DNA of 34,346 nt, taken from positions 1-34,346 of the forward strand of contig JAPLFP010000308.1 in assembly GCA_026390585.1 (NCBI GenBank). Direction: 5' to 3'. Shown here piece after piece: positions 2,946 through 27,178 of this stretch. The DNA is from Ignavibacteriales bacterium (GTDB lineage Bacteria; Bacteroidota; Ignavibacteria; UBA10030). The notes under the pieces are model-generated. The model had not been told where the DNA came from and did no database searches. It was given only the letters and a program-made list of their open reading frames with translations. A program made the position numbers and the translations under genes. The first letter of the stretch is position 1, and each line of letters starts with the position of its first letter.

Positions 2946-4742
2946 ATGCAATTCTTTGTTTCGATCGCGAAGGATACCGTGACTGACGCCGATCCCAAAA
3001 GAAAGGTCGCAGTTCTGATTACCCGCGTGTTCAACTCCTACCTGTCAGAATTCCTCATCATCACGAGGCGGGCGAAGACGACGTTTGAGCAGAGAGACTG
3101 GCGGGGAGGAAAGAGAGACGCGACCGAACGGCTCAGTGTGTATGAAAAAGTCCTGTCTCAAATTGCTGTTCAAATCGAAGGCATCCTTGGTCGTGATGCG
3201 ACCGATCGCCAAACGTGGATAGCCATCAAACGTATCTTCGCCCCACTCATTGCCGGCATCCAGAATGAGGATATCGCCGAGACCTTCTTCAATTCTGTAA
3301 CAAGAACGCTTCTGAAGACCGTCGGCATCGACAGAGAGGTGGAGTTCTTTCACCTCGAGACGAGGCCTCCGGTAGCAGGACCCGGTCCTCCCCTGTACAG
3401 GAAGTTCGAAGATCATCGTCCAACGGTGGAACTCATCCGGGCGATCGTCGCTGACCATCAGCTCAATGCGCGGTACGAAGACCTCGACCGTGATATTGAA
3501 TTGGCGGCAAATGAAGTGGACCTGATGACGTGGCCTTTCGTCCGGAGCGGCAATCGCTATTCGGTGGAGATTCTCACCCCATGTTTCTACAGGAATAAAG
3601 TTGCATACATCGTGGGGAGAATACTTCTGGGCTCGCGTATTGTGCCTATGATCATCCCTTGCTGCAATGATGATTCCGGAATCCATGTTGATTCTGTGCT
3701 GCTGGACGAAGCTGACGCAAACAACGTGTTCGGCTTCGCGTATTCCTATTTTCATGTTGAGGTACAGGTACCGAGTGACCTTGTTGCCTTCCTGCGCACC
3801 ATCATGCCGCATAAGCCGGTTGCAGATCTCTACAACGCTCTTGGTTTCAATAGACACGGCAAGACGGAATTCTACAGGGATCTGCACAGGTTCGTTCACG
3901 TCTCAAAGAAACAGTTCGTCACGGCTCCCGGCAGAGAGGGAGCTGTGATGACGGTCTTCACGCTCCCGAACTACAACTACGTCTTCAAAGTCATCAAGGA
4001 CCAGCCCTGCTTCCTCCGGTCTGCCTCGATCACTGATAAAACAATCGACAAGACAGAAGTGAAACAGAGATACAAATTTGTCACGCATCGGGACAGAGTG
4101 GGAAGACTTGTTGATACGCAGGAATTCGAGAACGTCAGGTTCAAAGCGAAGCGATATTCCGAGCAGGTTTTGCATGAATTCGAGGTCGCCGCCAGAAACT
4201 CGGTCTCACGCCAGGGTGAGTATGTTGTTATCAGTCACCTCTACCTGCAGCGAAAAGTGACGCCGTTGCCAATCTATTTTCAGGAAGAGAATGACTCTGC
4301 GGCCATCCGTCAGGTGGTTATTGACTTCGGTTACTTCATTAAAGATCTTGCCGCGACCGGACTCTTCCCGGCGGACCTCTTTAATACCTGGAACTATGGA
4401 GTCACGGAAGGGAACAGGGTCGTACTGTACGACTATGACGATGTCATCCCGCTGGAAAACGCGACATTCAGACGCAAACCAGGCGCGATGGATGAATACG
4501 AGGAAATGAACCCTGAGGAGGATTGGATCATCGCTGAGTCGACTGATTTCTTCGTCGACGAAATCGACTCCTTCGTCGGCATTCCTTATGCGCTTCGGGG
4601 CATCTTCAATTCGGAACACAAAGATCTTTTTACGATGGGGTTTTGGGAAAACATCAAAGCGCGGGTCGCTGAGGGGGAGATCATCGACATCATCGCATAT
4701 GGCAGGGACAAACGATTTCGACGGATAACGCGGGAAGCATAG
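2946..4742 (+). CDS. aceK: Isocitrate dehydrogenase kinase/phosphatase
   Basis: At 598 residues this is close to the usual AceK length (about 580). The family carries out both phosphorylation and dephosphorylation of isocitrate dehydrogenase, moving carbon between the TCA cycle and the glyoxylate bypass. Visible landmarks are FEQRDW and EDIAETFFNSV in the regulatory half, and APGREGAVMTVFTLP followed by FKVIKD (residues 347-352, with the ATP-binding lysine) in the kinase half. Further on are RDRVGRLVDTQEFEN, a catalytic loop LFPADLFNTWNYGV, and YDYDD near residues 495-499 (the Mg-binding Asp). The loop is one residue longer than I recall from the E. coli enzyme, but its Asp and Asn are kept. 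The ATG at 2946 lies just after a repeat element; the ribosome site is weak. No isocitrate lyase, malate synthase or isocitrate dehydrogenase gene lies in the window. Confidence 0.93.
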   Translation: MQFFVSIAKDTVTDADPKRKVAVLITRVFNSYLSEFLIITRRAKTTFEQRDWRGGKRDATERLSVYEKVLSQIAVQIEGILGRDATDRQTWIAIKRIFAPLIAGIQNEDIAETFFNSVTRTLLKTVGIDREVEFFHLETRPPVAGPGPPLYRKFEDHRPTVELIRAIVADHQLNARYEDLDRDIELAANEVDLMTWPFVRSGNRYSVEILTPCFYRNKVAYIVGRILLGSRIVPMIIPCCNDDSGIHVDSVLLDEADANNVFGFAYSYFHVEVQVPSDLVAFLRTIMPHKPVADLYNALGFNRHGKTEFYRDLHRFVHVSKKQFVTAPGREGAVMTVFTLPNYNYVFKVIKDQPCFLRSASITDKTIDKTEVKQRYKFVTHRDRVGRLVDTQEFENVRFKAKRYSEQVLHEFEVAARNSVSRQGEYVVISHLYLQRKVTPLPIYFQEENDSAAIRQVVIDFGYFIKDLAATGLFPADLFNTWNYGVTEGNRVVLYDYDDVIPLENATFRRKPGAMDEYEEMNPEEDWIIAESTDFFVDEIDSFVGIPYALRGIFNSEHKDLFTMGFWENIKARVAEGEIIDIIAYGRDKRFRRITREA

Positions 4743-6432: not shown

Positions 6433-7824
6433 ATGAAACGAATTGTCTTGAGTATTCTGATAACAGTTCTCGTGCTGAGCATTCCTGCCGCAGCACAGAA
6501 GCAGCTCCCGCCAGAAGGGGGCAAACCGAAAGACTTCTCGCTGCCAACGAAGCAGCAATTCAAGTTGTCGAATGGAATGGAAATCACCTTGGTTCCCTTC
6601 GGCATAATTCCGAAAGTCTCCGTCAGGATTGTCGTCCGGGCCGGCAACATCAACGAGAAAGAAAATGAGGTTTGGCTGATGGACATTCTCGGCGAGCTCA
6701 TGAAAGAGGGGACCAAGACCCGTTCCGCCGAGCAGGTTGCCCAAGAAGCTGCCGCCATGGGAGGCGATGTGAATATTGGTGTTGGGCCCGACCTGACGAC
6801 GATTTCAGGGGATGTACTCTCTGAGTTTGGTCCGAAACTGATCCGGCTTCTGGGTGATGTCATCAGGAACCCGCTCCTGCCGGAGTCGGAGCTTGCTCGT
6901 CTGAAAAAGGATCGGGTGCGCGATTTGAGCGTTCAAAAATCTCAACCGGGAAGCCTTGCGATGGAAGAATTCCGCAAAACAATGTATCCCAACCATCCGT
7001 ACGGCAGAGTGTTCCCGACTCAGGAGATGATCGAGAAGTACACCATCGACGATGTCCGATCGCTCTATAAAAACAACTTCGGTGCTCAACGGACCACTCT
7101 CTTCGTCGCCGGACGGTTTGATGCAAAGGCGATCGAAGGAGCGGTACGGGAAGCGTTCGACGGTTGGGAAAAAGGTCCGGCAATCTTCGTGAATGTCCCC
7201 AAGCCCGTGACGCAAAAATCATTTGGTTTGGTGGAGCGTCCCGGCGCTCCGCAATCGACCATTTATGTGGGCATTCCCGTCATCAATCCGTTTGACAAAG
7301 ACTACGTAAAAATGGCGGTCACCAATTCCCTTCTCGGCGGGTCCTTCGCATCGCGTATCACCGCAAACATCCGTGAGAAAAAAGGATACACGTATTCACC
7401 GTACAGTCAGGTCTCCTCCCGATATCGGGACGCGTACTGGGTGGAGATTGCTGACGTCGGCACCGATGTGACAGGAGCAGCTCTCAAGGAGATCTTGGGT
7501 GAAGTAAAGCGACTCGCGACCGAGCCCCCTCCGGAAGAAGAACTGAAGGGAATCCAAAACTACATCGCCGGGACGTTTGTTCTGCAGAACTCCACACCAC
7601 AGGGAATCATCGGTCAGCTGAGCAATCTGAAACTGCACGGCTTGCCGGATTCCTATTTGGCAAACTACGTGAAGAATGTCTACGCTGTGACGCCGCAGGA
7701 TGTTCAACAGATCACGAGCAAATACATCCGCGCCGATGATATGACATTAGTTGTGGTTGGCGACAAGAAGAAGGTAGAAGAGCAGATCAAAGATTACGCG
7801 ACCCCGAGTCCTGAGAAGAAGTAG
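6433..7824 (+). CDS. M16 family peptidase-like protein, non-catalytic partner subunit
   Basis: The 463-residue protein has a signal peptide (IVLSILITVLVLSIPAAAQ) and two M16 domains. Where the partner has HLFEH, this one reads WLMDILGELM (residues 81-90), so the metal ligands are gone. It keeps the Arg/Tyr pair of the substrate-binding half, Arg314 and Tyr319 in REKKGYTYSP. This division of labour, with one subunit holding zinc and the other supplying the R/Y site, is well known for heterodimeric M16B enzymes and mitochondrial processing peptidase. A strong ribosome site (AAGGAGAGAAGCC) precedes the ATG. The 11-base spacing to the catalytic gene supports co-translation and a complex. A clear terminator follows at 7861. 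Confidence 0.9.
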   Translation: MKRIVLSILITVLVLSIPAAAQKQLPPEGGKPKDFSLPTKQQFKLSNGMEITLVPFGIIPKVSVRIVVRAGNINEKENEVWLMDILGELMKEGTKTRSAEQVAQEAAAMGGDVNIGVGPDLTTISGDVLSEFGPKLIRLLGDVIRNPLLPESELARLKKDRVRDLSVQKSQPGSLAMEEFRKTMYPNHPYGRVFPTQEMIEKYTIDDVRSLYKNNFGAQRTTLFVAGRFDAKAIEGAVREAFDGWEKGPAIFVNVPKPVTQKSFGLVERPGAPQSTIYVGIPVINPFDKDYVKMAVTNSLLGGSFASRITANIREKKGYTYSPYSQVSSRYRDAYWVEIADVGTDVTGAALKEILGEVKRLATEPPPEEELKGIQNYIAGTFVLQNSTPQGIIGQLSNLKLHGLPDSYLANYVKNVYAVTPQDVQQITSKYIRADDMTLVVVGDKKKVEEQIKDYATPSPEKK

Positions 7825-7859
7825 AAGAGGCACTCGGCCGTTTCAAAGCACTTGAGCGG

Positions 7860-7896
7860 ACAGCCCGTCAGATCACTTGACGGGCTGTTTCTTTTT
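7860..7896 (+). terminator. Rho-independent terminator after the M16 pair
   Basis: An 11-bp perfect stem (ACAGCCCGTCA, 7860-7870, with TGACGGGCTGT, 7878-7888) and a 7-base loop are followed by TTTCTTTTT. It terminates the + strand M16 operon and overlaps the last codons of the convergent minus-strand gene, whose stop codon is at 7873-7875. Confidence 0.85.
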
Positions 7897-8715
7897 GGTC
7901 ACACTTCTTTTCCGCGGGGGAGCCGCCTTGATTTCATCGAGTTTCTCATGCAGCTGCTGCAACATCAGTTCGGATTTCAGGTTGACCTCATAGTCCTGTT
8001 CCGCTCGTAAGCGATCCTTGATTTGCGCCCTGTTCTGACTCATCATGATCAGAGGTGCCTGAAGAGATGCAACCAAAGCAAGAATAAAATTGAGGAAGAC
8101 AAATGGGTATGGGTCGAAAGGCCTGAACAACAATTCAACGATGTTCAAGAGGCACCATGCACCAATACCCACAAGAAAGTAGATGACAAACTTCCAGCTT
8201 CCGACAAAATCCGCCACCCTGTCGGCAAGTCTGTCTCCAACACTCATCTGTTCGTCCATTTCCTCGTTGATATTCTTGGAAGCCATGGATGTCACGAGCT
8301 CATTGGTCGCCTGGAGACGCTTGCCGATCTCACTGATCATTGAGATGGCAACGATGGGGCGTGTCGACAAGAAATTGATGAACTCCTCCCGCCACATCTC
8401 AAGGAGTCGGCAGTCTTCAATTGCTCTTGCCGTGGCTGTTCTCGGCAGGCCGCTGATGAGGGCAAGTTCCCCGAAAAAGCCGCCCCTATTGATGGTTGAG
8501 ACACGAATGTCTTCCTGATCCTCTCCGGAAAGGACACAGATCTCTACTGCTCCGTCTTCAACAATGAACATGGAAGACCCGACATCCCCTTTGCGAAACA
8601 GAACCTCTGACTTCCGGATCGTACGCTCGTGCCAGAGCAGTGTAAGAAGGTTGAGATCCTCCGCGGAGAGGTTTTCGAACATCGGTATGTTGGTGAGAAA
8701 TTCTCGGGTAGTCAT
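7873..8715 (-). CDS. Cyclic nucleotide-binding domain / DUF1003 membrane protein
   Basis: The 280-residue protein starts with a cNMP-binding domain (about residues 10-130) containing FRKGDVGSSMFIVEDGAVEI, then GGFFGELALISGLPRTATARA, the phosphate-binding cassette. A DUF1003 region follows (about 150-260): GDRLADRVADFVGSWKF, two membrane helices (VIYFLVGIGAWCLLNIV and FVFLNFILALVASLQAPLIMM) and MSQNRAQIKDR. The C-terminus is highly basic (KRSVTKKK). The sensory domain presumably faces the cytosol and may respond to a cyclic nucleotide; the DUF1003 function is unknown. AGGAGG lies 12 bases before the ATG, longer than usual. The gene is alone on the minus strand, convergent with the M16 pair and divergent from the tRNA. 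Confidence 0.88.
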   Translation of the reverse strand: MTTREFLTNIPMFENLSAEDLNLLTLLWHERTIRKSEVLFRKGDVGSSMFIVEDGAVEICVLSGEDQEDIRVSTINRGGFFGELALISGLPRTATARAIEDCRLLEMWREEFINFLSTRPIVAISMISEIGKRLQATNELVTSMASKNINEEMDEQMSVGDRLADRVADFVGSWKFVIYFLVGIGAWCLLNIVELLFRPFDPYPFVFLNFILALVASLQAPLIMMSQNRAQIKDRLRAEQDYEVNLKSELMLQQLHEKLDEIKAAPPRKRSVTKKKQPVK

Positions 8716-15224: not shown

Positions 15225-16616
15225 ATGGAGACTCTCCGCACGGTTCTGGTGTTAGATGATAATCGGGTCTTCCTCGAAGATTTCGAATCACTGATGGAGG
15301 GCACGTTCAAGATCATCACGACACAGTCGGAAGCCGATGCGTTTGAAACGCTGAGCCGGATGAAAATCGACGCGATGCTTCTTGACCTGATGCTCAGCGA
15401 AGGACAAAGCGGGCTCGATGTCCTGAAACGCGTCAAGGAGTCGATGCCGGATTTCCCCGTTATCATGCTGACAGCACACGCGTCGGTCGAGAGTGCCGTA
15501 GAAGCAATGCGTCTGGGTGCTTACAGTTACATCTCCAAGTCCCCGAAGATTGAGGAGCTCAGGGCCATCGTTGAGAAAGCGCTGGCGGAACGTGAACTCA
15601 AAAGAGACTACGAGTTGTTGCGCGAAGAGGTCCAACGCGTCTCCGGAAGCATTGTTGGCACCAGTCCGACAATGCAGCGAGTGTTCGAATCGATTCAGCG
15701 CGTGGCGATGACGGATGTGACGGTGTTGATCACCGGCGAGTCGGGGACAGGCAAGGAGTTGGTGGCTCGCGAAATACACGCTGCCAGCAAAAGAAGTCAA
15801 CGCGTGTTCGTCACAGTCAATTGTGCGTCGCTCGTACGTGAACTGATTGAGAGCGAACTGTTCGGTCACCAGAAGGGATCGTTCACGGGAGCAACAGCGA
15901 CCAAGCTTGGCAAGTTTGAGCTGGCAGACGGCGGTACGATCTTCCTGGATGAGATTGCGGAGCTCGATGTTCATCTCCAGGTGAAACTTCTGCGTGCGCT
16001 CCAGGAAAAGGAGATCGACCGCATCGGAGGTACGAGCCCGATTCCTGTTGACGTGCGGGTCCTTGCTGCCACCAATCGTGATTTGAATTTGATGACAGAA
16101 CGGGGAGAGTTCAGGACTGATCTCTTCTATCGTTTAAACGTGTATCCGATTCACCTGCCTCCGTTGCGCGAACATCGGGAGGATATTCCGTTGCTCGTCG
16201 AGCACTCCCTGAAGCGGTTCGGAAGGTCTTTGAACAAGACTTCGATTCGGGTCAATCCTCTGGCACTGGATCAAATGATGCAATATAGCTGGCCGGGGAA
16301 TGTCCGTGAGCTGGAAAACGTCCTTCAGCGCGCAATTCTGATTTCGCCCAGTGCGTCCATCGAACCGGACCATCTTCCGAGAGAAATTGCAGATACCAGC
16401 GTTCCGATCGTGGATGGCCAGACGCTTCCAGACATTGAGCGGGAGGCTCGTGATGCGGCAGCAAGGGTAGCCATTTATAGAGCGCTGGAGCGGGCGGATT
16501 GGAACATCAAAGAGGGGGCAAAGCTCCTGGGTGTGCCCGATAAGACGCTCTATGACAAGTGCTCTCGTCTTGGGATCAAGTTGAGGGGGATGCAGAGTTC
16601 AAAGCCAACCGACTAA
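15225..16616 (+). CDS. Sigma-54-dependent response regulator (NtrC/PilR family)
   Basis: The 463-residue protein has the full three-part layout. The receiver (about 5-120) has Asp54 in LLDLMLSEGQSG. The AAA+ sigma-54 interaction domain (about 142-370) has Walker A GESGTGKE from residue 171, GSFTGA at 218-223 (the sigma-54 contact loop, usually GAFTGA), Walker B GGTIFLDEI and the arginine-finger region FRTDLFYRLNV. A Fis-type helix-turn-helix ends the protein (NIKEGAKLLGVPDKTLYDKCSRLG). It should bind enhancer DNA and open sigma-54 promoters by ATP hydrolysis. The Lys switch site reads SKSP rather than KP. The ATG at 15225 fits the fold. It lies just upstream of a pilus-like locus, and a near -24/-12 element precedes the first gene of that locus, so it is the likely local regulator. 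Confidence 0.95.
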   Translation: METLRTVLVLDDNRVFLEDFESLMEGTFKIITTQSEADAFETLSRMKIDAMLLDLMLSEGQSGLDVLKRVKESMPDFPVIMLTAHASVESAVEAMRLGAYSYISKSPKIEELRAIVEKALAERELKRDYELLREEVQRVSGSIVGTSPTMQRVFESIQRVAMTDVTVLITGESGTGKELVAREIHAASKRSQRVFVTVNCASLVRELIESELFGHQKGSFTGATATKLGKFELADGGTIFLDEIAELDVHLQVKLLRALQEKEIDRIGGTSPIPVDVRVLAATNRDLNLMTERGEFRTDLFYRLNVYPIHLPPLREHREDIPLLVEHSLKRFGRSLNKTSIRVNPLALDQMMQYSWPGNVRELENVLQRAILISPSASIEPDHLPREIADTSVPIVDGQTLPDIEREARDAAARVAIYRALERADWNIKEGAKLLGVPDKTLYDKCSRLGIKLRGMQSSKPTD

Positions 16617-16943: not shown

Positions 16944-17498
16944 ATGACAATCTTTCTAGATCTTGCTGGTTCTCTCGTTGTAAGAGCTTCCATGGTGACC
17001 GTAATGCTAGGTTTGACGGTGACCATGAATAATGCTCTGTACGAGACCACCCAGCGGACAAATGCAACGGCCACTGTTGCAGCGGTCGGAGAGATTATGT
17101 ACACGGATCTTAACGAGGCCGTGGGTACGGGGTTCTCGACTTCAAACCCCTACCTAATGGTGTTCCAAGCGGACACGAGCGATCAATCAACGCCGTGGAC
17201 AATTACATACGACGCTATGGAAACATACACTCGGACCCAGTGGGATCCCGTAGCTCATCAAAACGTTGATGTGGTGCTTCATCGGCTGTACCGCCAAAGC
17301 GGATCTCAGCGTGTATTGATCTCTGACAATCTTCAAAATGTGCAGTTCAGGTATTTCGATTCAGACGGCCAATCGCCGTCTTCGCCAGGTAACGTCAATT
17401 CGGTTCGAGTAACGCTCGTCGCAAAGATTGAGGGCGTCGAAAGTGGAGTAACAACAACCACCATTGATTTTAGGACATTTCCACCAAGTCTTAATTAA
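16944..17498 (+). CDS. Pilin-like membrane-anchored protein 1 (non-canonical N-terminus)
   Basis: The 184-residue protein has one N-terminal hydrophobic segment (roughly residues 10-28, MVTVMLGLTVTM) and a following helix-forming stretch. A beta-rich C-terminal half contains LISDNLQNVQFRYFDSDG, which recalls the PilW/GspJ class of minor pilins. There is no GFTLxE prepilin peptidase site, so cleavage and methylation as in type IV pilins are not expected. The N-terminal 60 residues line up in layout with the proteins at 17521 and 23547. An internal Met (residue 17) could be the true start and would leave an even shorter leader. It is the first gene after the sigma-54 regulator and lies in the same block as the PilC-like and PilB-like genes. 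The role in a pilus or pseudopilus is inferred. Confidence 0.7.
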   Translation: MTIFLDLAGSLVVRASMVTVMLGLTVTMNNALYETTQRTNATATVAAVGEIMYTDLNEAVGTGFSTSNPYLMVFQADTSDQSTPWTITYDAMETYTRTQWDPVAHQNVDVVLHRLYRQSGSQRVLISDNLQNVQFRYFDSDGQSPSSPGNVNSVRVTLVAKIEGVESGVTTTTIDFRTFPPSLN

Positions 17499-17520
17499 CA
17501 GTTAGTCGAAAGGCACAACC

Positions 17521-17934
17521 ATGGGGAGCTCAAAAACTCTACTTGTCAGCGCAACAATGCTGATCGTGGGGGTCTACGCGATCTCCCTGAAGAGCGTTCA
17601 GACCACCGCAATGCAGACCGCGCAGTCCCAGGTAAGTCGAATGCAAAGCGAACGGTTGGTTGATGCCGCGATGAGCGTTGCGCTCGATGATGTACAGAAA
17701 TATGGTCCTCAAAACAAAACGATAACAGGGAAGAAAGCCCTTGGTGGAACGATAGACTATACCATCACCAAAAAATCGAGTTCCCTCGCTCAGATTGACA
17801 TTGACGTATATATCGGGGGGGGGAAAACGAGACATGTGGTAGCACAGGTCGAGCAGGCAAAGAAGAAGAGCGGATATCGCAAGGTCCATCGCGGTGACTG
17901 GCGCGTTGCAAGCGTTTTTGTGAAAAAGGGCTAG
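17521..17934 (+). CDS. Pilin-like membrane-anchored protein 2
   Basis: The 137-residue protein begins MGSSKTLLVSATMLIVGVYA, a single membrane helix right at the N-terminus. An amphipathic helical stretch (about 25-58) and a small domain with GGTIDYTITKK and IDIDVYIGGGKTRHVVAQV, probably beta strands, follow. The tail is basic (KKKSGYRKVHRGDWR). No prepilin peptidase motif is visible. The layout (N-terminal anchor, alpha1-like helix, small globular head) matches the pilin/pseudopilin plan and its neighbours at 16944 and 23547. It starts 22 bases after the preceding stop and is certainly in the same operon. I recall similar MGSS-type hypothetical proteins near MNLGQT-type proteins in related genomes, but could not check. 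Confidence 0.65.
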   Translation: MGSSKTLLVSATMLIVGVYAISLKSVQTTAMQTAQSQVSRMQSERLVDAAMSVALDDVQKYGPQNKTITGKKALGGTIDYTITKKSSSLAQIDIDVYIGGGKTRHVVAQVEQAKKKSGYRKVHRGDWRVASVFVKKG

Positions 17935-17966
17935 CGTAGCAGCAACCTCTTAGCGACTCGACCTCT

Positions 17967-18284
17967 ATGTCTTCGAACGAATATCGGGTTTGTCCCAAGT
18001 GTGGTAATTTCTCGCTGGCGCAGGAACGCCAGCATTTTTGTATATGGTGCGGAACCAAACTGGTTGGGGAGTGCCAGCAATGCGCCAAGCCGATCCTCTA
18101 TCCGCACGGTCGGTTCTGTTATCATTGTGGTAGCCGGTATGGGTTCGCGAAAGTACATAACGGATTAGAGCAACGCCTGGTGAATACGTCCGAGTCAGCG
18201 GTGAAGGTTTGGGTGAGTGAGGAGGGGCGTACGCTTAAGTCTCAGTTTGTGCACGACGACCCGCTTGGCAAACGCAAGGTATAG
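17967..18284 (+). CDS. Double zinc-ribbon protein 1
   Basis: The 105-residue protein has four CxxC knuckles: C9/C12 (CPKCG), C25/C28 (CIWCG), C36/C39 (CQQC) and C51/C54 (CYHCG). They form two treble-clef zinc ribbons. A 45-residue tail without cysteines (SAVKVWVSEEGRTLKSQ) follows. Double zinc ribbons commonly mediate protein or nucleic acid contacts; nothing here fixes the partner. The gene follows pilin-like protein 2 by 32 bases and a shorter paralogue lies at 18552, so it seems to belong to the pilus-like locus. The ribosome site before the ATG is weak. Confidence 0.75.
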   Translation: MSSNEYRVCPKCGNFSLAQERQHFCIWCGTKLVGECQQCAKPILYPHGRFCYHCGSRYGFAKVHNGLEQRLVNTSESAVKVWVSEEGRTLKSQFVHDDPLGKRKV

Positions 18285-18410
18285 CGCACCGAAGAGCAGC
18301 GACCCCCCATCAACTGTTAACCCTCGAAAGAACTCCTTTTTCACCTTCCTCCGACTGATTCCAATCTTCGTATTTCACAGGCATTCTCGCGTGTTCTAGC
18401 TAGAGAGTCG

Positions 18411-18535
18411 GTTGAAAAGTGTGGCCACGAAGCCGCGAAGACACAAAGGGTTTGAGATATCGTTTCCTTTTCTCTTATTACTCTTCGTGTCTCGGTGCCT
18501 TTGTGGCTAATAGTAGGTTTTCATCCAAGCTTCTA
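18411..18535. repeat. Inverted-repeat spacer element between the zinc-ribbon genes (diverged)
   Basis: The 267-base gap 18285-18551 contains a hairpin-like unit with inner arms 'gtggccacgaag...cacaaag' (18421-18449) and 'cctttgtggc' (18499-18508). The outer ends are AGAGTCGGTTGAAAA on the left and, read on the minus strand, AGAAGCTTGGATGAAAACC on the right. The ends resemble, loosely, those of the L/R elements at 2401, 18773 and 22273. A related inner pattern is at 24150-24222. The first part of the gap (18285-18410) shows nothing recognisable. Confidence 0.45.
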
Positions 18536-18551
18536 GTAGACGTCCAAAAGG

Positions 18552-18773
18552 ATGCTCGTGGCCAGTGAAACTCAAAGCGTCAACCGCTATCGTCTTTGCC
18601 CAAAATGTGGTAACTTCTCGCATGTGCTGGAGGAGCAGTTCTACTGCATTCTCTGTGGAACAAAGCTCATCGAGCAATGCACTCAATGCGGAACATCGAT
18701 CCTGCATCCGCAGGGAAAGTACTGTCATCACTGCGGGAGCGCGTACCGTGATCCGCTCGTTGGCAATGAGTAG
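18552..18773 (+). CDS. Double zinc-ribbon protein 2 (paralogue)
   Basis: The 73-residue protein repeats the pattern of the gene at 17967: C16/C19 (CPKCGNF), C32/C35 (CILCGTKL), C43/C46 (CTQCG) and C58/C61 (CHHCGS). It lacks the long tail. Shared words (CPKCGNFS, CGTKL, the GK/GR-x-C-x-HCGS end) show a tandem duplication that has since diverged, with a repeat element now between the copies. The ATG at 18552 gives a 15-residue leader before the first cysteine; a shorter start cannot be excluded. The stop codon's last base coincides with the left end of the next repeat element. Confidence 0.7.
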   Translation: MLVASETQSVNRYRLCPKCGNFSHVLEEQFYCILCGTKLIEQCTQCGTSILHPQGKYCHHCGSAYRDPLVGNE

Positions 18774-19033
18774 AACGTATCTCAAAAACACTCTGTGAGA
18801 GAAAATAGTCTCACGCAAAGTCCCGCTGCTCGCAATGAACCAAAGCAACGAGTCATTGCGAGCGTTCTTTGCGAAGCAATCTATCCATCGACAGATTGCT
18901 TCGTCGTCCCGTCAGAAAGCAGCGGGACTCCTCGCAATGACTTGGTTGTATGTCGTTGCACTGCGGCTTGGCGCCTTTGCCTGCCTCGTGAAACTCCCTG
19001 AGGCAGGCGGGCGTGAGGTTTTTTGAGATGGCT
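18773..19033. repeat. Composite spacer element, copy 3 (R...L orientation)
   Basis: The left end is AGAACGTATCTCAAAAACAC (18773-18792), which is the R end type. The right end, read on the minus strand, is AGCCATCTCAAAAAA (19019-19033), which is the L end type. The element is therefore inverted relative to 2401-2929 and 22273-22485. Inside are the 'cattgcgag' units facing each other (18853-18861 and 18934-18942), and paired 'gacagattgcttcgtcgtcc' and 'cgaagcaat' arms. It fills the gap between zinc-ribbon gene 2 and the PilC-like gene almost exactly. Confidence 0.7.
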
Positions 19034-19059
19034 TGTAGTCTTGAGTTCAGGAAGACTTG

Positions 19060-20460
19060 ATGCCTCAATTGACCGCAACGGAATATCGAATCCAGGCAAT
19101 AGATCAAAACAACCGCCCGGCGCAGCGATACATCACGGCGGTCTCGATCTTTGCTGCGCGCGAACGGGCACGCTCACTGGCAAAGACACAGGGATGGAAG
19201 AAGACATCGGTCGACAAGAAGAAATCCTACTCCTACCGTGTGCTGAGAGGGTCGACGCAGATCGATGGTGTCCAGAGCGCCTATTCAAAAGCCGAAGTCA
19301 CTGCTGCGCTTGAGAAGCTCGGTTTCAAGGTAAAGAACGTCCGGCGATTCTACGATATTCGCTTCGCTGCATCTTCCGAGGAAGTAGTAACGTTCATCGG
19401 AACAAGTGCCAAACTGCTCGAACAAAAACTCCCCTACAACGAAATTCTCCAGATCATGTCGGGCCACGTCCGGGACAAGAACCTCCGGAGTGCGCTCAAG
19501 GCCATTATCCGCGACCTCAAGGAAGGTGTCGACTCGCGCGACGCATTTCTGCGGCAAGGGAAGGTCATCGGACACGACACTGCTCTGATGCTGGGCATCG
19601 CTTCGAAGAGCGGGGACATGAAAGCGATTTTCGAGAGCGTAGCCCGATTTGTAGAACGACAGGCCGATTTCCGCAAGGGTTTGATGAGTTCGATGATTCT
19701 CCCCGCCGTTACCTCACTCGCCCTGGTTGGTGCGCTGGTCTTTTACATCATGTACCTTCTTCCCAAGATGGTCGAAATGCTGAAGCCGATGATGGGAGCA
19801 ACGCCCCCGCTGACAGCATTCACCATGCAGGTGAGCGACATTCTGAAAGACAATCTGGTGCTGATTTTGGTCGCGTTTGGCGCGGCGCTGGGCAGTTTCT
19901 ATGCGTACATCCTGTCGACAAACGGCCGTGTCTGGTTCGACAAATGGGTGGTCAGGCTTCCGTACATTGGGAGAATTCTGAAGAACACGAGTTCAGAGCT
20001 GTTTTGCCGCGTCCTTGGAATCCTCTATACCTCCGGCGAAAACATTGATGCCATTCAGCACGCTGCTGAATCGAGTCGCAATCGCTTCCTGGAAAAACAG
20101 ATCAGAACGATCGCGATCCCGACCATGTTAAAATATGGGACCGAATTCTGGAAATCGATGGAGATGGTTGGGTTCTTCCCCGACATGATCATCTCCCGGT
20201 TCCGCACCGCAGGTGAGACAGGAAGCGTCAAAGTGACCGCAGTACAGCTGGCAGATTACTATGAAATGGAAAATCGTTACGCGATGAAGAACCTTGTCAA
20301 TATCATCGAGGTTGCTGTGTCGATGGTGATCATGGTTTCGATGGTGTTCCTGACACTGCTCTCTTCCGAGACGGCAACGATCAAGATCGAACCAAGGCAC
20401 GATCAACAACCGAAAATGACGGCGCAACCCGACACGATCATCGATCTTCGAGATAAATAA
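19060..20460 (+). CDS. Type II secretion/type IV pilus inner-membrane platform protein, PilC/GspF-like
   Basis: From the ATG at 19060, with AGGAAG just upstream, the protein has 466 residues. Two T2SSF domains lie at about 115-235 (SSEEVVTFIGTSAKLLEQKLP and MLGIASKSGDM) and about 320-440 (SSELFCRVLGILYTSGENI then FRTAGETGSV), each ending in membrane helices. The three helices are SLALVGALVFYIMYLLP, LVLILVAFGAALGSFYAYIL and VAVSMVIMVSMVFLTLL. The protein is the inner-membrane hub that the PilB ATPase turns to build a pilus or pseudopilus. The N-terminus carries two tandem copies of the small beta-alpha 'EYRIQAIDQ...AARERA' and 'YSYRVLRGS...SKAEVTAAL' module, where PilC proteins usually have one. 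The PilB-like gene follows after 9 bases. Confidence 0.9.
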   Translation: MPQLTATEYRIQAIDQNNRPAQRYITAVSIFAARERARSLAKTQGWKKTSVDKKKSYSYRVLRGSTQIDGVQSAYSKAEVTAALEKLGFKVKNVRRFYDIRFAASSEEVVTFIGTSAKLLEQKLPYNEILQIMSGHVRDKNLRSALKAIIRDLKEGVDSRDAFLRQGKVIGHDTALMLGIASKSGDMKAIFESVARFVERQADFRKGLMSSMILPAVTSLALVGALVFYIMYLLPKMVEMLKPMMGATPPLTAFTMQVSDILKDNLVLILVAFGAALGSFYAYILSTNGRVWFDKWVVRLPYIGRILKNTSSELFCRVLGILYTSGENIDAIQHAAESSRNRFLEKQIRTIAIPTMLKYGTEFWKSMEMVGFFPDMIISRFRTAGETGSVKVTAVQLADYYEMENRYAMKNLVNIIEVAVSMVIMVSMVFLTLLSSETATIKIEPRHDQQPKMTAQPDTIIDLRDK

Positions 20461-20469
20461 GAACAGCCC

Positions 20470-22269
20470 GTGCCGACAACAACACCGATACAGAAAACGA
20501 AGCGAGAATTCGGCGATCTGCTCGTGGAGAAGGATATCATTTCTCCCGACCAGCTGCTTGGCGCGCTCGAGATTATCAGCCGTGAGCCGCACGACAAGCG
20601 CAGGAAACTCCCCCAAGTCTTGGTGGACGATCTTCGCGCTGATCGCGACAAGATCTACGATGAGATTGCCGACTATTATGCTTTCCGGAAGCTGCCCATT
20701 AAAGAGGAGGACCTGGACGACGAAGCGCGCGCGTTTGTCCGGAAACATCTGCACGGAATGCAGCCGACAGTCAGAGCCATGGCGCTCGAATATCGCGTTC
20801 TTCCCTTCATGATGGATCCAGAACGTCCGGAGCGCCTGTTGGTGGTCACGCCCGACCCCACACGCAAAGAAGTTTACGCAATCGCGCGATCACTGCCGTT
20901 CCAGAAATTTGAAATCTGCTACGTAAAACTGAAACAGTGGGAAGATCTCTGGCAGCGTGTCAACGTCACCCGCTCGGGGTACGCAGACTTCGAGTCTGAT
21001 ATTCATGACACCACGCAGGAGATTCAGGAAGACTCGGAGATGTACGAGCAGGAGCTCGAGGAGGAAATCAACCGAAGCGGATTGGTTGACCTCATCGAGA
21101 ACGTGTTCATCGATGCTGTCCGTGTCGGGGCAAGCGATATTCACGTCATTCCGCGCGGTGAAAAGAGGACGGAATTCCATTTTCGGATCGATGGCAAGCT
21201 GACCCTTTGGTATGCGAACACTGACTCACGAGCAGAGGCTGTCGCCGCAGTAGTGAAAGACCGTGCAATGAACCTCGATCGCTTCGAGCGCACGACAGCG
21301 CAGGACGGCTTTGCCCAGTTCACGATCGACAGGAAAACCATTCGGTTCCGTGTTTCGGTCATTCCAACGGTTGGCAAGGAACTGAAAAGCAAATACGAGT
21401 CCATCGTCATTCGTGTCCTGCAAGAGCCCACGTTTAGCACCCGGCTGGAAGATATTGGCTTCGATCCATACTCCCTGAGCGAGTTTCGAAAGGCAATTAC
21501 GAAACCGTACGGGATGATCATCGTCACCGGCCCTACAGGAAGCGGGAAAAGCACAACCCTGTTTTCAGCCCTTCGCACGATCATTGATTCAACAGTCAAT
21601 GTGCTCACCGTCGAAGACCCGGTGGAGTTTTTTATCGAAGGAGCTCGTCAGGTAAAGCTCAATCCCAAGCTTGATTTCGACGGCGCTCTTCGGGCAATCT
21701 TGCGTCACGATCCTGACATCGTGATGGTAGGTGAAATTCGCGATCGGCAGACCGCGGAAATTGCCATCAAGCTGGCAAACACCGGTCACTTGACGTTGTC
21801 AACCCTTCACACGAACGATGCAGCCAGTGCCGTTTCCCGCTTGTACAAGATGGGTGTCGAGCCGTTCTTGATTGCGTATTCGATCAATATTATCATGGCG
21901 CAACGGCTGGTCCGAAAACTCTGTGATCGTTGCAAGTCGCCCGTCGAGCAGCCCGAGGTCGAGGCGCTCCTGAAACTCGGCATGAAGAAAGAAGATATCG
22001 CGACCGCAAAGATGTGCCGGCCCGTGGGTTGTATCAGTTGCATCAAGGGATTCAAAGGCCGGACCGCAATCTACGAAGCGCTTCCGTTTACGAAGACCAT
22101 CCGTAAGATGATTCTGCAAGCAGGCGAAGTCATCGATGACGAAGCCCTACGGCAAGAAGCAATTCGCCGTGGTATGCAGACTCTGAGAATGTCCGGACTT
22201 CAATTGGTGAAGAATGGAATCACGACGCTTGAAGAGATTGCCAGTGTGACGTTGGAAGATGAGGATTAG
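20470..22269 (+). CDS. Type IV pilus/T2SS assembly ATPase, PilB/GspE-like
   Basis: The 599-residue protein begins at a GTG 9 bases after the PilC-like gene; no better start is available. An N-terminal MshEN-like region (about 10-150: FGDLLVEKDIISPDQL) precedes the ATPase. Walker A is GPTGSGKST from residue 354. The Asp box (TVEDPVEF), Walker B (DPDIVMVGEIRD) and His box (LSTLHTNDAASAV) are all intact. The zinc-binding cysteines are LCDRCK and CRPVGCISC (about 484-522). TAIYEAL and the C-terminal helical region complete the fold. This is an assembly motor, not a PilT retraction motor, which would lack the MshEN and cysteine parts. It pairs with the PilC-like protein. No PilT, PilD, PilMNOP or secretin gene lies in the window. 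Confidence 0.94.
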   Translation: MPTTTPIQKTKREFGDLLVEKDIISPDQLLGALEIISREPHDKRRKLPQVLVDDLRADRDKIYDEIADYYAFRKLPIKEEDLDDEARAFVRKHLHGMQPTVRAMALEYRVLPFMMDPERPERLLVVTPDPTRKEVYAIARSLPFQKFEICYVKLKQWEDLWQRVNVTRSGYADFESDIHDTTQEIQEDSEMYEQELEEEINRSGLVDLIENVFIDAVRVGASDIHVIPRGEKRTEFHFRIDGKLTLWYANTDSRAEAVAAVVKDRAMNLDRFERTTAQDGFAQFTIDRKTIRFRVSVIPTVGKELKSKYESIVIRVLQEPTFSTRLEDIGFDPYSLSEFRKAITKPYGMIIVTGPTGSGKSTTLFSALRTIIDSTVNVLTVEDPVEFFIEGARQVKLNPKLDFDGALRAILRHDPDIVMVGEIRDRQTAEIAIKLANTGHLTLSTLHTNDAASAVSRLYKMGVEPFLIAYSINIIMAQRLVRKLCDRCKSPVEQPEVEALLKLGMKKEDIATAKMCRPVGCISCIKGFKGRTAIYEALPFTKTIRKMILQAGEVIDDEALRQEAIRRGMQTLRMSGLQLVKNGITTLEEIASVTLEDED

Positions 22270-22272
22270 AGT

Positions 22273-22485
22273 AGAGCCATCTTGAAAATGTCACGCAAAG
22301 TCCCGCTTCTGGATTCCGCTCATGAGCGGGATTCAGAGAGCGGAAGCGCAAAGACGCAGAGAATGGAGAGAAGAGAGTATTAAGTACCAGGTACCAAGTG
22401 GAAAAAAACATATACATGACTTCGCGGCTTTGCGTCTTTGCGAGAGATTCTTCTTACTTGCTGTTGGGTTTTTGACATAGGTTCT
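22273..22485. repeat. Composite spacer element, copy 2 (L...R orientation)
   Basis: The left end is AGAGCCATCTTGAAAATG (22273-22290), L type. The right end on the minus strand is AGAACCTATGTCAAAAACCC (22466-22485), R type. It starts 4 bases after the PilB stop. Inside are a 'ggattccgctcatgagcgggattc' palindrome (22311-22334) and paired 'gcgcaaagacgcag' (22346) and 'ctttgcgtctttgcg' (22428) arms. Its outer ends, not its inner parts, match the other copies. Confidence 0.7.
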
Positions 22486-22509
22486 AGTGAATATTCACAG
22501 GAGATCAGC

Positions 22510-23301
22510 ATGAATGCTTCAGCTCAGATCATGGAAGCGCGCACGGTGCTCATGGTCGACGATGACGATGCGTTCCGCATCGCAATGAAACAGGTCCTTT
22601 CCGCCGGCGGGAAATACAAAGTGCGCTCGGCCGACTCAGGTGAAGCTGCCGTTGAATTGCTTCAGCAGGAACGGTTTGACCTGATCGTGCTCGACTATCG
22701 GATGCCCGGAATCTCCGGCCTGAACGTCCTTCAATGGATGCACGAACAGAAGCTCGACACCCCGGTGATCATGATGACGGCTGCAGGCTCCGAGAGTGTC
22801 GCCGTAGAAGCGATGAAACTTGGCGCATACGATTATGTTCGTAAGGAACAGATCGACATCGATCACATCAGCATCCTCATCGATGGCGTGATTGAGCGGT
22901 ATCTGTTCCGAAAAGAAAAGGAGCGCCGGGAAACGATCGAGCGTGAACGCGAAAAAAGCCTCGTGGCCATTGAAACATTTCACAGTACACTGGCATCCAT
23001 TGCTCAGATCGTCAACAATTCGTTGTCGATGGTTTCGCTGAACATCCAGGAACATGAAGCGAAGCTGAAGCCCTTTGTTACTGAGGAGGGTCAGCGGAGG
23101 GTCGCACAGGTGTTCGCAGGCCTGAAGCAGGAGTACAGCGTCATTTCGTCGGCGGTCAAATCGATGCTTGACATGGCAAATGTTCTCCATGGAAACTTCA
23201 CGGACGCGAACTATACCGAAAAGCTCCAGGAGATGATGAACGGAAACCTCAAGATGGTTCAGCAACGCGGGATATCCAATCCCTCCACGAAGAAACCTTA
23301 A
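22510..23301 (+). CDS. Response regulator with a helical C-terminal tail
   Basis: From the ATG at 22510 (AGGAGA upstream) the protein has 263 residues. The receiver covers about 11-130: the acidic cluster VDDDD, Asp62 in LIVLDYRMPG, the switch Thr in VIMMTAAGS, and Lys in YVRKEQ (a Pro is usual after this Lys). Residues 140-250 are a charged linker (EKERRETIEREREK) and long helices (FHSTLASIAQIVNNSLSMVSLN, then QEYSVISSAVKSMLDMANV). These resemble the dimerisation bundle of a histidine kinase, but no HATPase follows. It may be a phosphotransfer or dimerising output. The frame is open back to 22438 inside the repeat; this is not accepted. It sits between the PilB-like and third pilin-like genes, so it may steer the pilus-like machine. 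Confidence 0.85.
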   Translation: MNASAQIMEARTVLMVDDDDAFRIAMKQVLSAGGKYKVRSADSGEAAVELLQQERFDLIVLDYRMPGISGLNVLQWMHEQKLDTPVIMMTAAGSESVAVEAMKLGAYDYVRKEQIDIDHISILIDGVIERYLFRKEKERRETIEREREKSLVAIETFHSTLASIAQIVNNSLSMVSLNIQEHEAKLKPFVTEEGQRRVAQVFAGLKQEYSVISSAVKSMLDMANVLHGNFTDANYTEKLQEMMNGNLKMVQQRGISNPSTKKP

Positions 23302-23363
23302 ATGGCAATTGAGGAACAGCTAACGAACAGAGTCTATGCACTAGAACGAAACACATCTTGTTT

Positions 23364-23445
23364 CTGGGGTGTCAGGAACCATTTCCTGACACCACCTTGG
23401 CTCATTTGAAGAGAAGAGGTGTCAGGGTGTGGACCCTGACACCCT
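23364..23445. repeat. REP-like hairpin doublet, copy 2
   Basis: It starts CTGGGGTGTCAGG, as copy 1 at 14994 does. Hairpin 1 is GGTGTCAGG-AACCATTT-CCTGACACC and hairpin 2 is GTGTCAGGGT-GTGG-ACCCTGACAC. The linker (about 24 bases) shares GGCT with copy 1. This copy has the clean form of hairpin 1, without the inserted small hairpins. Paired inverted units of this type are typical of REP sequences spread by REP-associated (TnpA-REP) transposases; none is encoded here. Confidence 0.7.
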
Positions 23446-23490
23446 GAGTTATTTTGATAGTAGTTGCGAAACGACAAGCGAACGGAGTTT

Positions 23491-23550
23491 ATGCGTAACA
23501 ACACAACACATCTTGCGCTGTCAATGGTCACAGGAGGGGAAATCCTATGA
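23491..23550 (+). CDS. Possible 19-residue leader ORF coupled to pilin-like gene 3
   Basis: ATG at 23491, with CGGAG upstream, opens a 19-codon frame (MRNNTTHLALSMVTGGEIL). Its TGA (23548-23550) overlaps the ATG of the next gene in an ATGA. The ribosome site of the next gene (AGGAGGGG) lies inside it. It could be a coupling leader or the remnant of a lost upstream gene. It is too short to prove by sequence. Confidence 0.3.
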   Translation: MRNNTTHLALSMVTGGEIL

Positions 23551-24128
23551 ACCTGGGACAAACGATGATCACGATGGGAATGTTCGTGTTGCTGGTCATG
23601 TCGGTGATCAGCGCGAATCGCATGCTCGTGCAGAATGCGGAGAACAGCCTGCAAACAGAAGCTCTGGCGGAATCTGCAACTATTGCGAATGACATCTTCT
23701 CGGAGGCACAGAGCAAATTGTTTGATCATAATGTGGATACAACCAGAACAAATCAAGTTCCAGGTGATTTCAGTTCACCGACTGACACGACCCATTCGGA
23801 ATGGGGGCCATCGAGTGCAGAAAGGTCGGCGGTTGGCCCGATGCCGGACAGCAGTTACGTCGGACACTATCGGTCGATCAATGCCTTTGACGATGTCGAT
23901 GACTATAACGGTTACACCCGAATTGTCGGCGCGGACACTACAAGTGGCGTCAGAATCGGTGGTTATTTGGTGACTGTGCGAGTTTTTTATGTCGATCTAA
24001 GCAATCCTGATGTTGCAGTAGACTGCCAGACCAATTTTAAGAAGATAGAAGTGGATGTCCAGCACCACCCATATTTGGATTTCTTGCCAGACGAGAAGCT
24101 CACTTACTCGTCATTGATGTCATACTAG
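23547..24128 (+). CDS. Pilin-like membrane-anchored protein 3 (MNLGQT type)
   Basis: The 193-residue protein begins MNLGQTMITMGMFVLLVMSV, a membrane helix at the very N-terminus. An amphipathic helix (ANRMLVQNAENSLQTEALAE then SATIANDIFSEAQSK, about 23-58) and a domain of about 130 residues follow. That domain is rich in Asp, Tyr, Ser and Thr (RSINAFDDVDDYNGYTRIV and YLVTVRVFYVDLSNPD). AGGAGGGG, 8 bases upstream, supports the start. As in the proteins at 16944 and 17521 there is no prepilin peptidase site. From memory, proteins opening MN(L/T)GQT are frequent in Ignavibacteria-like genomes as hypotheticals; I could not check. Its distance from the other two suggests that repeat elements have expanded the operon. 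Confidence 0.7.
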   Translation: MNLGQTMITMGMFVLLVMSVISANRMLVQNAENSLQTEALAESATIANDIFSEAQSKLFDHNVDTTRTNQVPGDFSSPTDTTHSEWGPSSAERSAVGPMPDSSYVGHYRSINAFDDVDDYNGYTRIVGADTTSGVRIGGYLVTVRVFYVDLSNPDVAVDCQTNFKKIEVDVQHHPYLDFLPDEKLTYSSLMSY

Positions 24129-24757: not shown

Positions 24758-27178
24758 GTGTCAGCCAAGACTCTAAATACTGTGCAGGATCTCGCCAAGC
24801 TCAATGCGGCCAAAGAAGCTGCACGCCAATGCTTATTGGCCGCCGACAAGTTTTTGAAAGAGTCGCACTTCGAACTTGCCAGGCAGCAGTTGGAGAAAGC
24901 GCGGGAGCTCGATCCTTCCAACGCGTATATCTACGCGTTTCAGGATCGCATAGCGTATTTTGAGGAAAAGAAGAAGAAGGACGTTGCAAGCGGGGTGGCA
25001 CCCGCTCTGACGACACCGACACAGTATACCATTCCAAAACCGGTTATCAAGGCGGTTCCGAAGACGCCTTCCTCTGCCGTGGAGCACAAAGCAGAAGAGA
25101 TAGCGAGCACTCCTTCGCCTGCACCAGCTCTGGCGCCAGAAGAGCAGAAGAAAGAAGGAATCGCGGGTGCTCCTGCGCCGCCGGTTGATGTTCCCGCGAA
25201 GGACGAAAGGAAAGAACTACTAGCCGCACCTGACCGTGTCGAAGAATCGAAACCTGTGACGGTTGCCGAAGAGACCGAAGAGCAAATGCAGTTTCGGCTA
25301 GAGGAAGATCTTCGCAAGAAATTGGAAGAAGAGGCCCAGACCGCGCACGAGCAGGCGCGCAAAGTCGAGGAGCGTAAGCGCCAGGAAGCGGGGCGTAAGC
25401 TCGACGAACTTCGGAAAAAAGAGTCTACCGAACGAGCAGCCGGGGAAGAACAGAAAAAGCGAGAGCTCGAAGCGAGGGCGGCTGCGGAGGAACAACGGGG
25501 GCGTGAGCTTGAGGCGCGTGTTGCTGCAGAAGAGCAACGGCGGAAGGAGCTGGAGGCACGTATTGCTGCCGAGGTAGAGCGTCGGCGGGAAGATGAAGCG
25601 CGTGTGGGAGAAGAGCTTCGGCGCCGCGAGCTTGAAGCAAGAGCTCACGCAGAGGAGCGACGACGCAAAGAGCTTGAAGGGCGGGTCGCAGAAGAAGAGC
25701 GGAAACGGAAGGAACTCGAAGACCGCATTGCGATTGAAGAGGGTCGCCGCAGGGAGACGGAGGTCCGGGCTGCCGAGGAACAACGTCGACGCGAGCTGGA
25801 AGCGCGTGCAGCTGCCGAAGAGCAGAAACGGAAGGAGCTGGAAGCTCGAATTGCTGCCGAAGAGCAGCGGCGAAAGGAATTGGAAGCCCGTATCGCTGCT
25901 GAAGAGCAGCGGATGAGGGAAGAGCTGGCGCGGAAAGAAGAAGAGCGGAGACGAAGGGAATCTGAATCGAAGGCACTGGCCGAAGAGCAGATTCGAAAAG
26001 GTCTCGAGGCGCGGGTTGCGGAAGAAGAAAGACGTCGCAAGGACCTGGAGAAGCGGGCAGCGACGGAAGAACTGAGAATGAAGGAGATCGAGGCGAAGAT
26101 CTCTGAAGGGGAGAGGCGGAGAAAAGAGCTGGAAGAGTTGGCTGCAGCCGAGGAGCGGCGGCGGAAAGAATTTGAGGAGCTTGCGGCTGCCGAGGAGCGT
26201 CTGCGGAAGCAGATAGAAGAAAAGATGGTTGAAGAGTTGCACCGCAAGGAGATGGAAACGCGCGCGGCGGATGAGCAACGAAAAATTGAGGAGATACGCA
26301 GGCAGGAGGAAGTCCGAGCAGTTGATGAGTTGCGGCGGAAGGAAATGGAGGCTCGCGCTGCTGAAGAGCAACGAAAACTGGAAGACATGCGGCGTCAGGT
26401 CGAGGAATTGACTCAAGCCCTCGAAGTGGAGAAGAAAGCCCGCGAGGAGATTACGCGGCTGAACCTTCAGAACTCCGTCAAACAGCTTCGCTCGGCACTC
26501 GAAGCTGCCTGGGTGAACGGTGCTCCCGTGGATGCTGCTGCAAACGCCCTCCACGGACTGGCCATTTCACTCGAGATCCCTCCGGACGTCGAGCTGTCGA
26601 TCATCCGGGAAGTCAAGTTGGACATGTACAGCAAGGCGGTCAAAGAAGTCATCGCCAAGCGCAAACTTCTCCGGAGTTCGTCGTCGACCCTCGAATGGCT
26701 GAGAAAAGTGTATCAGGTCAGTGTCGCCGAGTACCTGGAGAATGAATCGAAATTCCTGCTCGATTTAGTGGCGGATCAGTACAAGGGAACGGTCCTTCTG
26801 GTGTCGAAGATGCTTGGTACGAAAGAGGACATCACTCCGCGGCTGAAATCTTCGGGATTTGCAGTCGTGCAAGCAGCAACCCCCGAGAATGCCCTGGAGA
26901 AAATCGAGAAGGTCAATCCGAACATCGTTCTCTGTGATACAGATTTTCCGGACGGGCTCAGCGGCATCAAGTTTTTGCATGTAATTCGCGCCAATTCCAA
27001 ATTCAATTACATTCCATTTGTTCTGGTTGGCGAAGTCGCGGAGATTGCGCAATTGAAGTCATCCGAACTGAAGCCGAACGAGGGTGTGATCAAACGCCCG
27101 ATCGATTACGAAGAACTCACGACACTGATGAACGAAAAACTTACGACGTTCAGGGAATATATTTCGTCACTGAAGTAG
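24758..27178 (+). CDS. Coiled-coil scaffold protein with a degenerate receiver domain
   Basis: The 806-residue protein opens at GTG 24758 with a TPR-like pair of helices (AARQCLLAADKFLKESHFEL, then ARQQLEKARELDPSNAYIYA). A Pro/Ala-rich linker (about 85-170) follows. A very long charged coiled coil (about 180-570) is built of 14-residue units such as LEARIAAEEQRRKE, repeated more than twenty times. A helical segment (about 575-665) leads to a receiver-like domain (about 676-806). That domain keeps an Asp in the beta3 position (IVLCDTDFPDG) and a Lys in beta5 (VIKRPID), but the acidic pair is replaced by LLVSKML and the Thr/Ser switch by FVLVGE. It is therefore probably not phosphorylated in the normal way. 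A cytosolic scaffold or polar organiser role is inferred from the architecture. A single receiver gene follows 57 bases on. Confidence 0.8.
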   Translation: MSAKTLNTVQDLAKLNAAKEAARQCLLAADKFLKESHFELARQQLEKARELDPSNAYIYAFQDRIAYFEEKKKKDVASGVAPALTTPTQYTIPKPVIKAVPKTPSSAVEHKAEEIASTPSPAPALAPEEQKKEGIAGAPAPPVDVPAKDERKELLAAPDRVEESKPVTVAEETEEQMQFRLEEDLRKKLEEEAQTAHEQARKVEERKRQEAGRKLDELRKKESTERAAGEEQKKRELEARAAAEEQRGRELEARVAAEEQRRKELEARIAAEVERRREDEARVGEELRRRELEARAHAEERRRKELEGRVAEEERKRKELEDRIAIEEGRRRETEVRAAEEQRRRELEARAAAEEQKRKELEARIAAEEQRRKELEARIAAEEQRMREELARKEEERRRRESESKALAEEQIRKGLEARVAEEERRRKDLEKRAATEELRMKEIEAKISEGERRRKELEELAAAEERRRKEFEELAAAEERLRKQIEEKMVEELHRKEMETRAADEQRKIEEIRRQEEVRAVDELRRKEMEARAAEEQRKLEDMRRQVEELTQALEVEKKAREEITRLNLQNSVKQLRSALEAAWVNGAPVDAAANALHGLAISLEIPPDVELSIIREVKLDMYSKAVKEVIAKRKLLRSSSSTLEWLRKVYQVSVAEYLENESKFLLDLVADQYKGTVLLVSKMLGTKEDITPRLKSSGFAVVQAATPENALEKIEKVNPNIVLCDTDFPDGLSGIKFLHVIRANSKFNYIPFVLVGEVAEIAQLKSSELKPNEGVIKRPIDYEELTTLMNEKLTTFREYISSLK

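Follow-up and report, generated by a model that had tools for sequence, protein, structure and literature searches.

The 34,346-nucleotide stretch of DNA analyzed here, hereafter the window (contig JAPLFP010000308.1 of assembly GCA_026390585.1), corresponds to contig C307 in the draft genome (4.7 Mb, 95% complete) of an uncultured Ignavibacteriales bacterium. It very likely contains a type IV pilus locus, one of two in this genome, that belongs to a branch of the type IV filament superfamily in which the leader peptide of the pilins has been lost; judged from the sequences, such a leaderless branch would be new. Statements on this genome as a whole are based on searches of its contigs. The locus contains three small pilin-like genes, designated A1, A2, and A3, together with pilC and pilB. 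The initial annotation had placed all five correctly, with pilC and pilB intact, and the prepilin peptidase site GFTLxE is, as it noted, absent from all three small proteins (starting at 16944, 17521, and 23547). Its proposal of a distinct filament branch with subunits unprocessed by prepilin peptidase was supported in every test run: neither PilD nor a class III pilin was found in the genome contigs, and the small genes are linked to pilC and pilB in most relatives. It had called the subunits "uncleaved"; "leaderless" is the more precise word.

A review describes a class III leader of 6-26 residues and its peptidase as common to type IV filaments, the only group noted without a detectable peptidase being the Nanoarchaeota (PMC4471445). 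Removal of the leader by this dedicated peptidase is regarded as a core feature and is used to detect type IV filament systems in genomes (PMC4471445, PMC6668835). No description of leaderless pilins or peptidase-free pili was found in the open literature, subscription papers and preprints being outside the search.

Leaderless Minor Pilins of the Window

In A1, A2, and A3, the membrane helix is the N-terminus itself, preceded by no more than Met and one or a few further residues, and a class III leader is absent. Each start is the first ATG, GTG, or TTG after an in-frame stop 5-16 codons upstream, so that ordinary initiation cannot add a leader. Dozens of genomes share this layout, with identities of roughly 15-70%, which by sequence comparison is far above chance. 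Lys or Arg before the helix is absent from 39/39 A3, 35/37 A1, and 14/16 A2 sequences, as well as from 118/120 sequences of the major pilin described below; residue 2 of A1 is mostly Gly, Thr, Ser, Ala, or Val.

Asp6 of A1 is invariant in 30 of 30 diverse homologues. With the A1 profile, TTHA1219 (5g23), a type IV-like pilin of Thermus, was matched at E 0.006, Asp6 lying over the Glu of LLELLLAS. Once Met is removed, Asp6 becomes residue 5, the position of the canonical Glu5, and among the pilins studied here only A1 keeps an acidic residue at that position, as Asp. A2 was matched by Pfam ComGG at E 1.4e-4 (22.7 bits, just below the 25-bit cut-off); its homologues begin with MGS or MGN and adjoin A1 in relatives. 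The A3 profile had no match beyond chance among PDB sequences. Its AlphaFold2 model (pLDDT 81.5) consists of a long helix (3-55) and four strands, and was compared using VIA-align, a second structural comparison after Foldseek that was used with its cautions. The six best matches were five pseudopilin chains of type II secretion systems (T2SS; GspI/EpsI/XcpV type) and a Thermus competence pilin, with Z from 7.5 to 4.8; a Z of 7.5 lies within the range reachable by chance, although all the top rows are pilins. The profile searches and the model, both proposed initially as checks, place the small proteins among pilins, through the sub-threshold ComGG match, TTHA1219, and A3. The three had been presented as similar pilin-like proteins; they are pilin-like and yet not copies of one thing, being different minor types (GspJ-, GspK-, and GspI-like), with the major pilin outside the window.

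Linkage of the small pilins to pilB and pilC, likewise suggested as a check, was conserved in most relatives: a leaderless pilin lies within 10 kb of pilC in 17/21 loci of the same type, and A1 is linked to pilC/pilB in 16 of these 21. The gene order in relatives (L056) is pilB, A3, A1, A2, corresponding to V-W-X, the usual order in minor pilin operons.

The Major Pilin Family

By scanning relatives for small proteins with an N-terminal helix near pilC, a major pilin was identified outside the window. It is an unannotated family beginning with MGQQQLLL (N-terminus of the MGQQQLLLIILGVIIVGIAIAVG type). An MGQQ start is present in 110/120 sequences and Gly as residue 2 in 116/120; in 112/120, no possible start lies between an in-frame stop and the Met that precedes GQ, and an AGGAG-like (Shine-Dalgarno-like) site is mostly present just upstream. 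The identical MGQQQ start recurred in 15 of 16 distant genomes of the phylum that were tested. The gene adjoins pilC in both types of pilus locus, and 28 of the 39 pilin-pilC distances on named contigs are below 420 bases. The genome under study has 10 matches, at least seven of them short, complete pilins of either the MGQQQ or the MGQTQ type.

No model in Pfam or NCBIfam covers this family, which is why the pil loci of Ignavibacteria seem incomplete to annotators. Previous study of Melioribacter roseus reported pilT, pilQ, pilB, and pilC, with pilA and pilD missing, and judged the set to be probably incomplete (PMC3534657), whereas an unannotated leaderless pilin family was found here in relatives. 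A gene set like that of M. roseus is what annotators would see of a leaderless system.

The AlphaFold model of the major pilin of relatives (pLDDT 89.7) has a helix at residues 2-55 followed by a four-stranded sheet, a predicted pilin fold. In VIA-align, each of its 14 best matches was a type IV pilin (Z from 10.0 to 6.4); full-length FimA and PAK pilin were among them. Gln5 was considered as a stand-in for Glu5 and dropped; this equivalence is not claimed because the structural register is shifted, residue 4 lying over mature residue 1. Separately, contig C134 of the same genome (L246:4202-5014, 7541-8308) encodes two proteins (255-270 residues) that contain several hydrophobic segments and whose C-terminal parts match the major pilin model; these were read as a pilin-like head fused to further membrane segments.

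Prepilin Peptidase in the Genome and Phylum

A profile search of the genome contigs detected neither an A24 prepilin peptidase, the enzyme of leader removal and methylation, nor a class III pilin, with no N_methyl match even at E 1. An A24-like stretch on contig C57 (15 bits, positions 3-65 of 104) was rejected and not counted as a peptidase because it is a weak partial match in a 436-residue protein without a Pfam family. In the same family, 31/32 genomes have no A24 over the cut-off; the sole positive is G003, where the contig with A24 also bears a T2SS-like cluster and pseudopilins containing GFSLTELMVV.

The survey was extended to 395 genomes of the phylum, where the MGQQQ pilin was present in 130, a PilC domain in 181, and A24 in 51. 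Pilin and PilC domain occur together in 128 genomes, 113 of them without A24. Among the 53 genomes with a PilC domain and no MGQQQ pilin, A24 is present in 36, and the other 17 have neither (Fisher p 1.3e-13 for pilin presence versus A24 among PilC-domain genomes, only a guide because the genomes are related). All 15 genomes with both pilin and A24 hold extra GspF domains (4 or 6 T2SSF matches). Where the A24 locus was inspected (G281, G049, and G379 of the 15, and G003), A24 lies beside a T2SS-like cluster with pseudopilins of the GFSLTELMVVLVIIG (GFSLTE) type. The T2SS-like loci of this phylum keep both leaders and A24, unlike the leaderless loci. Gaps in drafts do not explain the absence of A24, since 12 single-contig genomes with the MGQQQ pilin also have none (G152, G160, G216, G263, G320, G328, G034, G060, G103, G140, G207, and G219).

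It would still be conceivable that the pilins are processed after all, by a distant or unrecognized peptidase cutting within the helix or after the conserved Gly, between MG and QQQ. A24 enzymes diverge and may be overlooked, and in most A3 proteins, as in the major pilin, Gln follows a Gly that resembles Gly-1 before the class III cleavage site. However, an uncharged leader of two residues would be far outside the range of 6-26 (PMC4471445), A1 homologues have no such Gly, and the A24 search was positive in 12/14 control genomes as well as in phylum members with T2SS-like loci. Together with the single-contig genomes, these results make hidden processing very unlikely.

Two further observations concern the survey. 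Locus L248, in family genome G009, contains a lone class III GspG-like pseudopilin (KGFSLTELMVVLVIIG), and no A24 was found in G009. Families f21, f22, and f30 of the phylum include genomes with GspF/PilC domains and neither the MGQQQ pilin nor a clear A24; in some of these (G198, G202, and G036), the A24 matches are short and divergent and lie in reading frames about 160 residues long.

The Second Pilus Locus

Contig C301 of the same genome encodes a PilB cut by the contig end, PilT, PilM-N, a PilO-like protein, a PilQ-like secretin, and a large repeat-rich lipoprotein-like protein. PilT scored above its cut-off (TIGR01420, 320.9 versus 319.1 bits), the PilM-N fusion matches PilN at E 3e-9, and the secretin (PF00263, E 2.8e-18) has PilQ as its best named family; PilO was assigned from position and topology only. 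Relatives have an unbroken copy of this operon, including a separate PilC that shares about 41% identity with the PilC of the window, showing that the family has two pilus loci: by gene content, type A, the window locus, is tied to two-component genes, and type B is the full machine. Across named contigs, the operon order is major pilin, pilC, pilB, A3, A1, pilT, pilM, and secretin; A3 homologues are present in both locus types.

A canonical cluster with PilD and true pilins elsewhere in the genome, with the small proteins unlinked to pilB and pilC, had been named initially as the counter-case. What was found is PilM-N/O/T/Q on C301, yet no PilD or class III pilin, with linkage in most relatives. 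In terms of a type IVa pilus, PilB and PilC are present in the window, and PilT, PilM/N/O, and PilQ are present on C301, outside it. Pilin-fold subunits are represented by the major pilin of relatives (Z up to 10.0) and A3 of the window. A class III leader ending in Gly, with Glu5, is absent (no leader is possible, and the genome has no N_methyl match), as is the A24 peptidase. The ATPase, platform protein, and pilin subunits are homologous to those of type IV filaments in the broad sense, and the set typical of T2SS (GspF, GspE, and GspG with leaders, and the GspO peptidase) was not found.

The likeness of A3, A1, and A2 to GspI, GspJ, and GspK/ComGG raises the alternative that the small proteins form a periplasmic pseudopilus, that is, a secretion or DNA-uptake piston with no surface pilus, and PilT and secretin are indeed absent from the window locus itself. 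True pili, however, have PilV/W/X minor pilins of the same appearance, and the T4a-pilin-like major subunit is present in several copies. PilT in the sister operon, above its cut-off, favors a pilus over a pseudopilus, which we consider a possible but improbable alternative. In a tree, all 78 PilC proteins of this kind grouped together, as expected of one origin, and were separated with support 0.96 from the five T2SS-type GspF proteins included from this phylum.

The named contigs bear the submitter labels Ignavibacteria/Ignavibacteriae, Bacteroidetes, and Kryptonia (Chrysopegis kryptomonas, Kryptonium thompsonii), and single contigs are labelled Chlorobiaceae, Calditrichaeota, and, for a short one, Deltaproteobacteria. 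Complete sets of type IV pilus genes with leaderless pilins are carried by a large branch of bacteria centered on Ignavibacteria.

Proposed Assembly and Comparison with Known Systems

As leaders are absent, and the cutting enzyme is absent in most genomes, the pili must be built without the supposedly universal processing step. We infer assembly from leaderless subunits that are trimmed at most by methionine aminopeptidase. Membrane insertion of the pilin would need no leader and would place its N-terminus inside. Before a small residue 2, which is Gly in nearly all major pilins, Met would be taken off by methionine aminopeptidase, and the N-terminus would be freed in a way similar to cleavage by PilD. 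The filament would then be built by PilB and PilC of either locus, using the envelope complex encoded on C301, and retracted by PilT. Real type IV pili that can retract are probably made by this clade from pilins that have no leader and never meet prepilin peptidase; leader cleavage and N-methylation would be dispensable, and a Gln-rich GQQQ N-terminus, exposed by methionine aminopeptidase, would take the place of the Phe1-Glu5 chemistry seen in the bacterial type IVa pili known so far.

Several points weigh against this, besides the chance-range score of A3. Foldseek against PDB alone returned no significant match for the major pilin or A3 model. Canonical position 5 of the major pilin is not acidic, and in the structural comparison the register of this pilin is off by three residues, with residue 4 of the model over mature residue 1. 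Fifteen genomes with the MGQQQ pilin do carry A24, and draft genomes can miss genes. Secretin, PilT, and major pilin are all absent beside the window locus. The filament, its N-terminus, and its function are predictions from gene sequences.

The system resembles the type IVa pilus in that a single operon holds the motor set, the platform gene, and the genes for PilM-N, a PilO-like protein, and secretin, that the major pilin has the T4 pilin fold, and that the minor pilins are in V-W-X order. It differs in having no class III leader, mostly no prepilin peptidase and thus presumably no N-methylation, and a major pilin without Glu5. Compared with the T2SS pseudopilus (GspG/H/I/J/K), the minor pilins are alike; PilT in the sister operon and the position of same-phylum T2SS-like GspF outside the PilC clade are not. 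MSH pili also have a locus without a peptidase gene (PMC6668835); MSH genomes own a peptidase from another system, whereas most genomes here have none and the leaders are gone. Loss of the processing step across many families of one phylum, with motors, secretin, and pilin fold remaining, would amount to a natural experiment, making testable why prepilins are cut, what roles Glu5 and the N-methyl group have, and how pilins enter the membrane.

Organization of the Window Locus

The genes of the window locus and its conserved neighbors are listed in Table 1.

Table 1. Predicted genes of the pilus locus in the window and its neighbors.
Feature	Position	Strand	Basis
NtrC-type sigma-54 regulator, conserved neighbor upstream of pilin genes	15225..16616	+	Homologue upstream in L043, L045, L050, L051, L052, L053
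Leaderless minor pilin A1, GspJ/PilW-like	16944..17498	+	Asp6 conservation; profile match to TTHA1219; linkage to pilC/pilB
Leaderless minor pilin A2, GspK/PilX/ComGG-like	17521..17934	+	Sub-threshold Pfam ComGG; homologues beside A1
Double zinc-ribbon protein 1, possible partner	17967..18284	+	PF12773 DZR, E 4.8e-8
Double zinc-ribbon protein 2, possible partner	18552..18773	+	PF12773 DZR, E 2.1e-8
PilC/GspF-like inner-membrane platform protein	19057..20460	+	PF00482, two stretches, E 2.5e-26; TIGR02120 GspF, E 5.7e-40
PilB/GspE-like assembly ATPase	20470..22269	+	TIGR02538 type_IV_pilB, E 6.7e-138 (under equivalog cut-off); PF00437, E 2.5e-105
Response regulator, receiver domain and helical tail, possible pilus regulator	22438..23301	+	PF00072, E 5.8e-30
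Leaderless minor pilin A3, GspI/PilV-like (MNLGQT type)	23547..24128	+	AlphaFold2 model; structural matches; homologues in both pilus loci
Long coiled-coil protein, C-terminal receiver-like domain, conserved neighbor	24758..27178	+	Weak PF00072 at 693-789, E 1.1e-6, under cut-off

Zinc-ribbon protein 1 is kept directly upstream of window-type pilC in relatives, and protein 2 was found again before pilC in L047, L048, and L052. Homologues of the response regulator adjoin pilB in relatives (56-91% identity), where the coiled-coil protein is also retained beside the locus (53-83% identity). The coiled-coil gene contains many imperfect repeats of 39-42 bases (EEQRRKELEARI-like), and its terminal receiver domain is degenerate.

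The window locus is likely a second PilB/PilC motor with its own GspI-, GspJ-, and GspK-like tip set under two-component control, which probably takes its secretin and major pilin from the second locus and from the copies of the major pilin gene scattered through the genome; as a guess, the zinc-ribbon and receiver proteins perhaps regulate PilB. It is surrounded by kinases and response regulators and has no major pilin of its own, which would also suit a side-tracked paralogue used for signaling only, in which ATPase and platform act with zinc ribbons and two-component proteins and no filament is assembled. A PilB paralogue on C123, accompanied by zinc-ribbon, receiver, and NtrC genes yet no PilC, points the same way. 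However, the catalytic motifs of the window PilB are intact (Walker A GPTGSGKS, Walker B, and both CxxC), PilC is complete, and pilin genes are retained beside pilB/pilC in most relatives, so that a signaling-only role appears unlikely, and we prefer the second pilus motor.

The C123 gene (L007:1215-4851) encodes a PilB/GspE-like ATPase with an MshEN domain, possibly a stand-alone signaling ATPase sharing the zinc-ribbon/receiver set of the window locus. Another PilB-like ATPase is located at the end of contig C136 (L008:234-1514) among housekeeping genes, with no pilin or PilC in view. Elsewhere in the window, inverted repeats at 2441-2903, 18797-18982, and 22302-22345 (44-84 bases, with distant partners, 81-91% complementary) resemble dispersed palindromic elements, and positions 2946-4742 encode an AceK-like isocitrate dehydrogenase kinase/phosphatase with complete regulatory and kinase domains.

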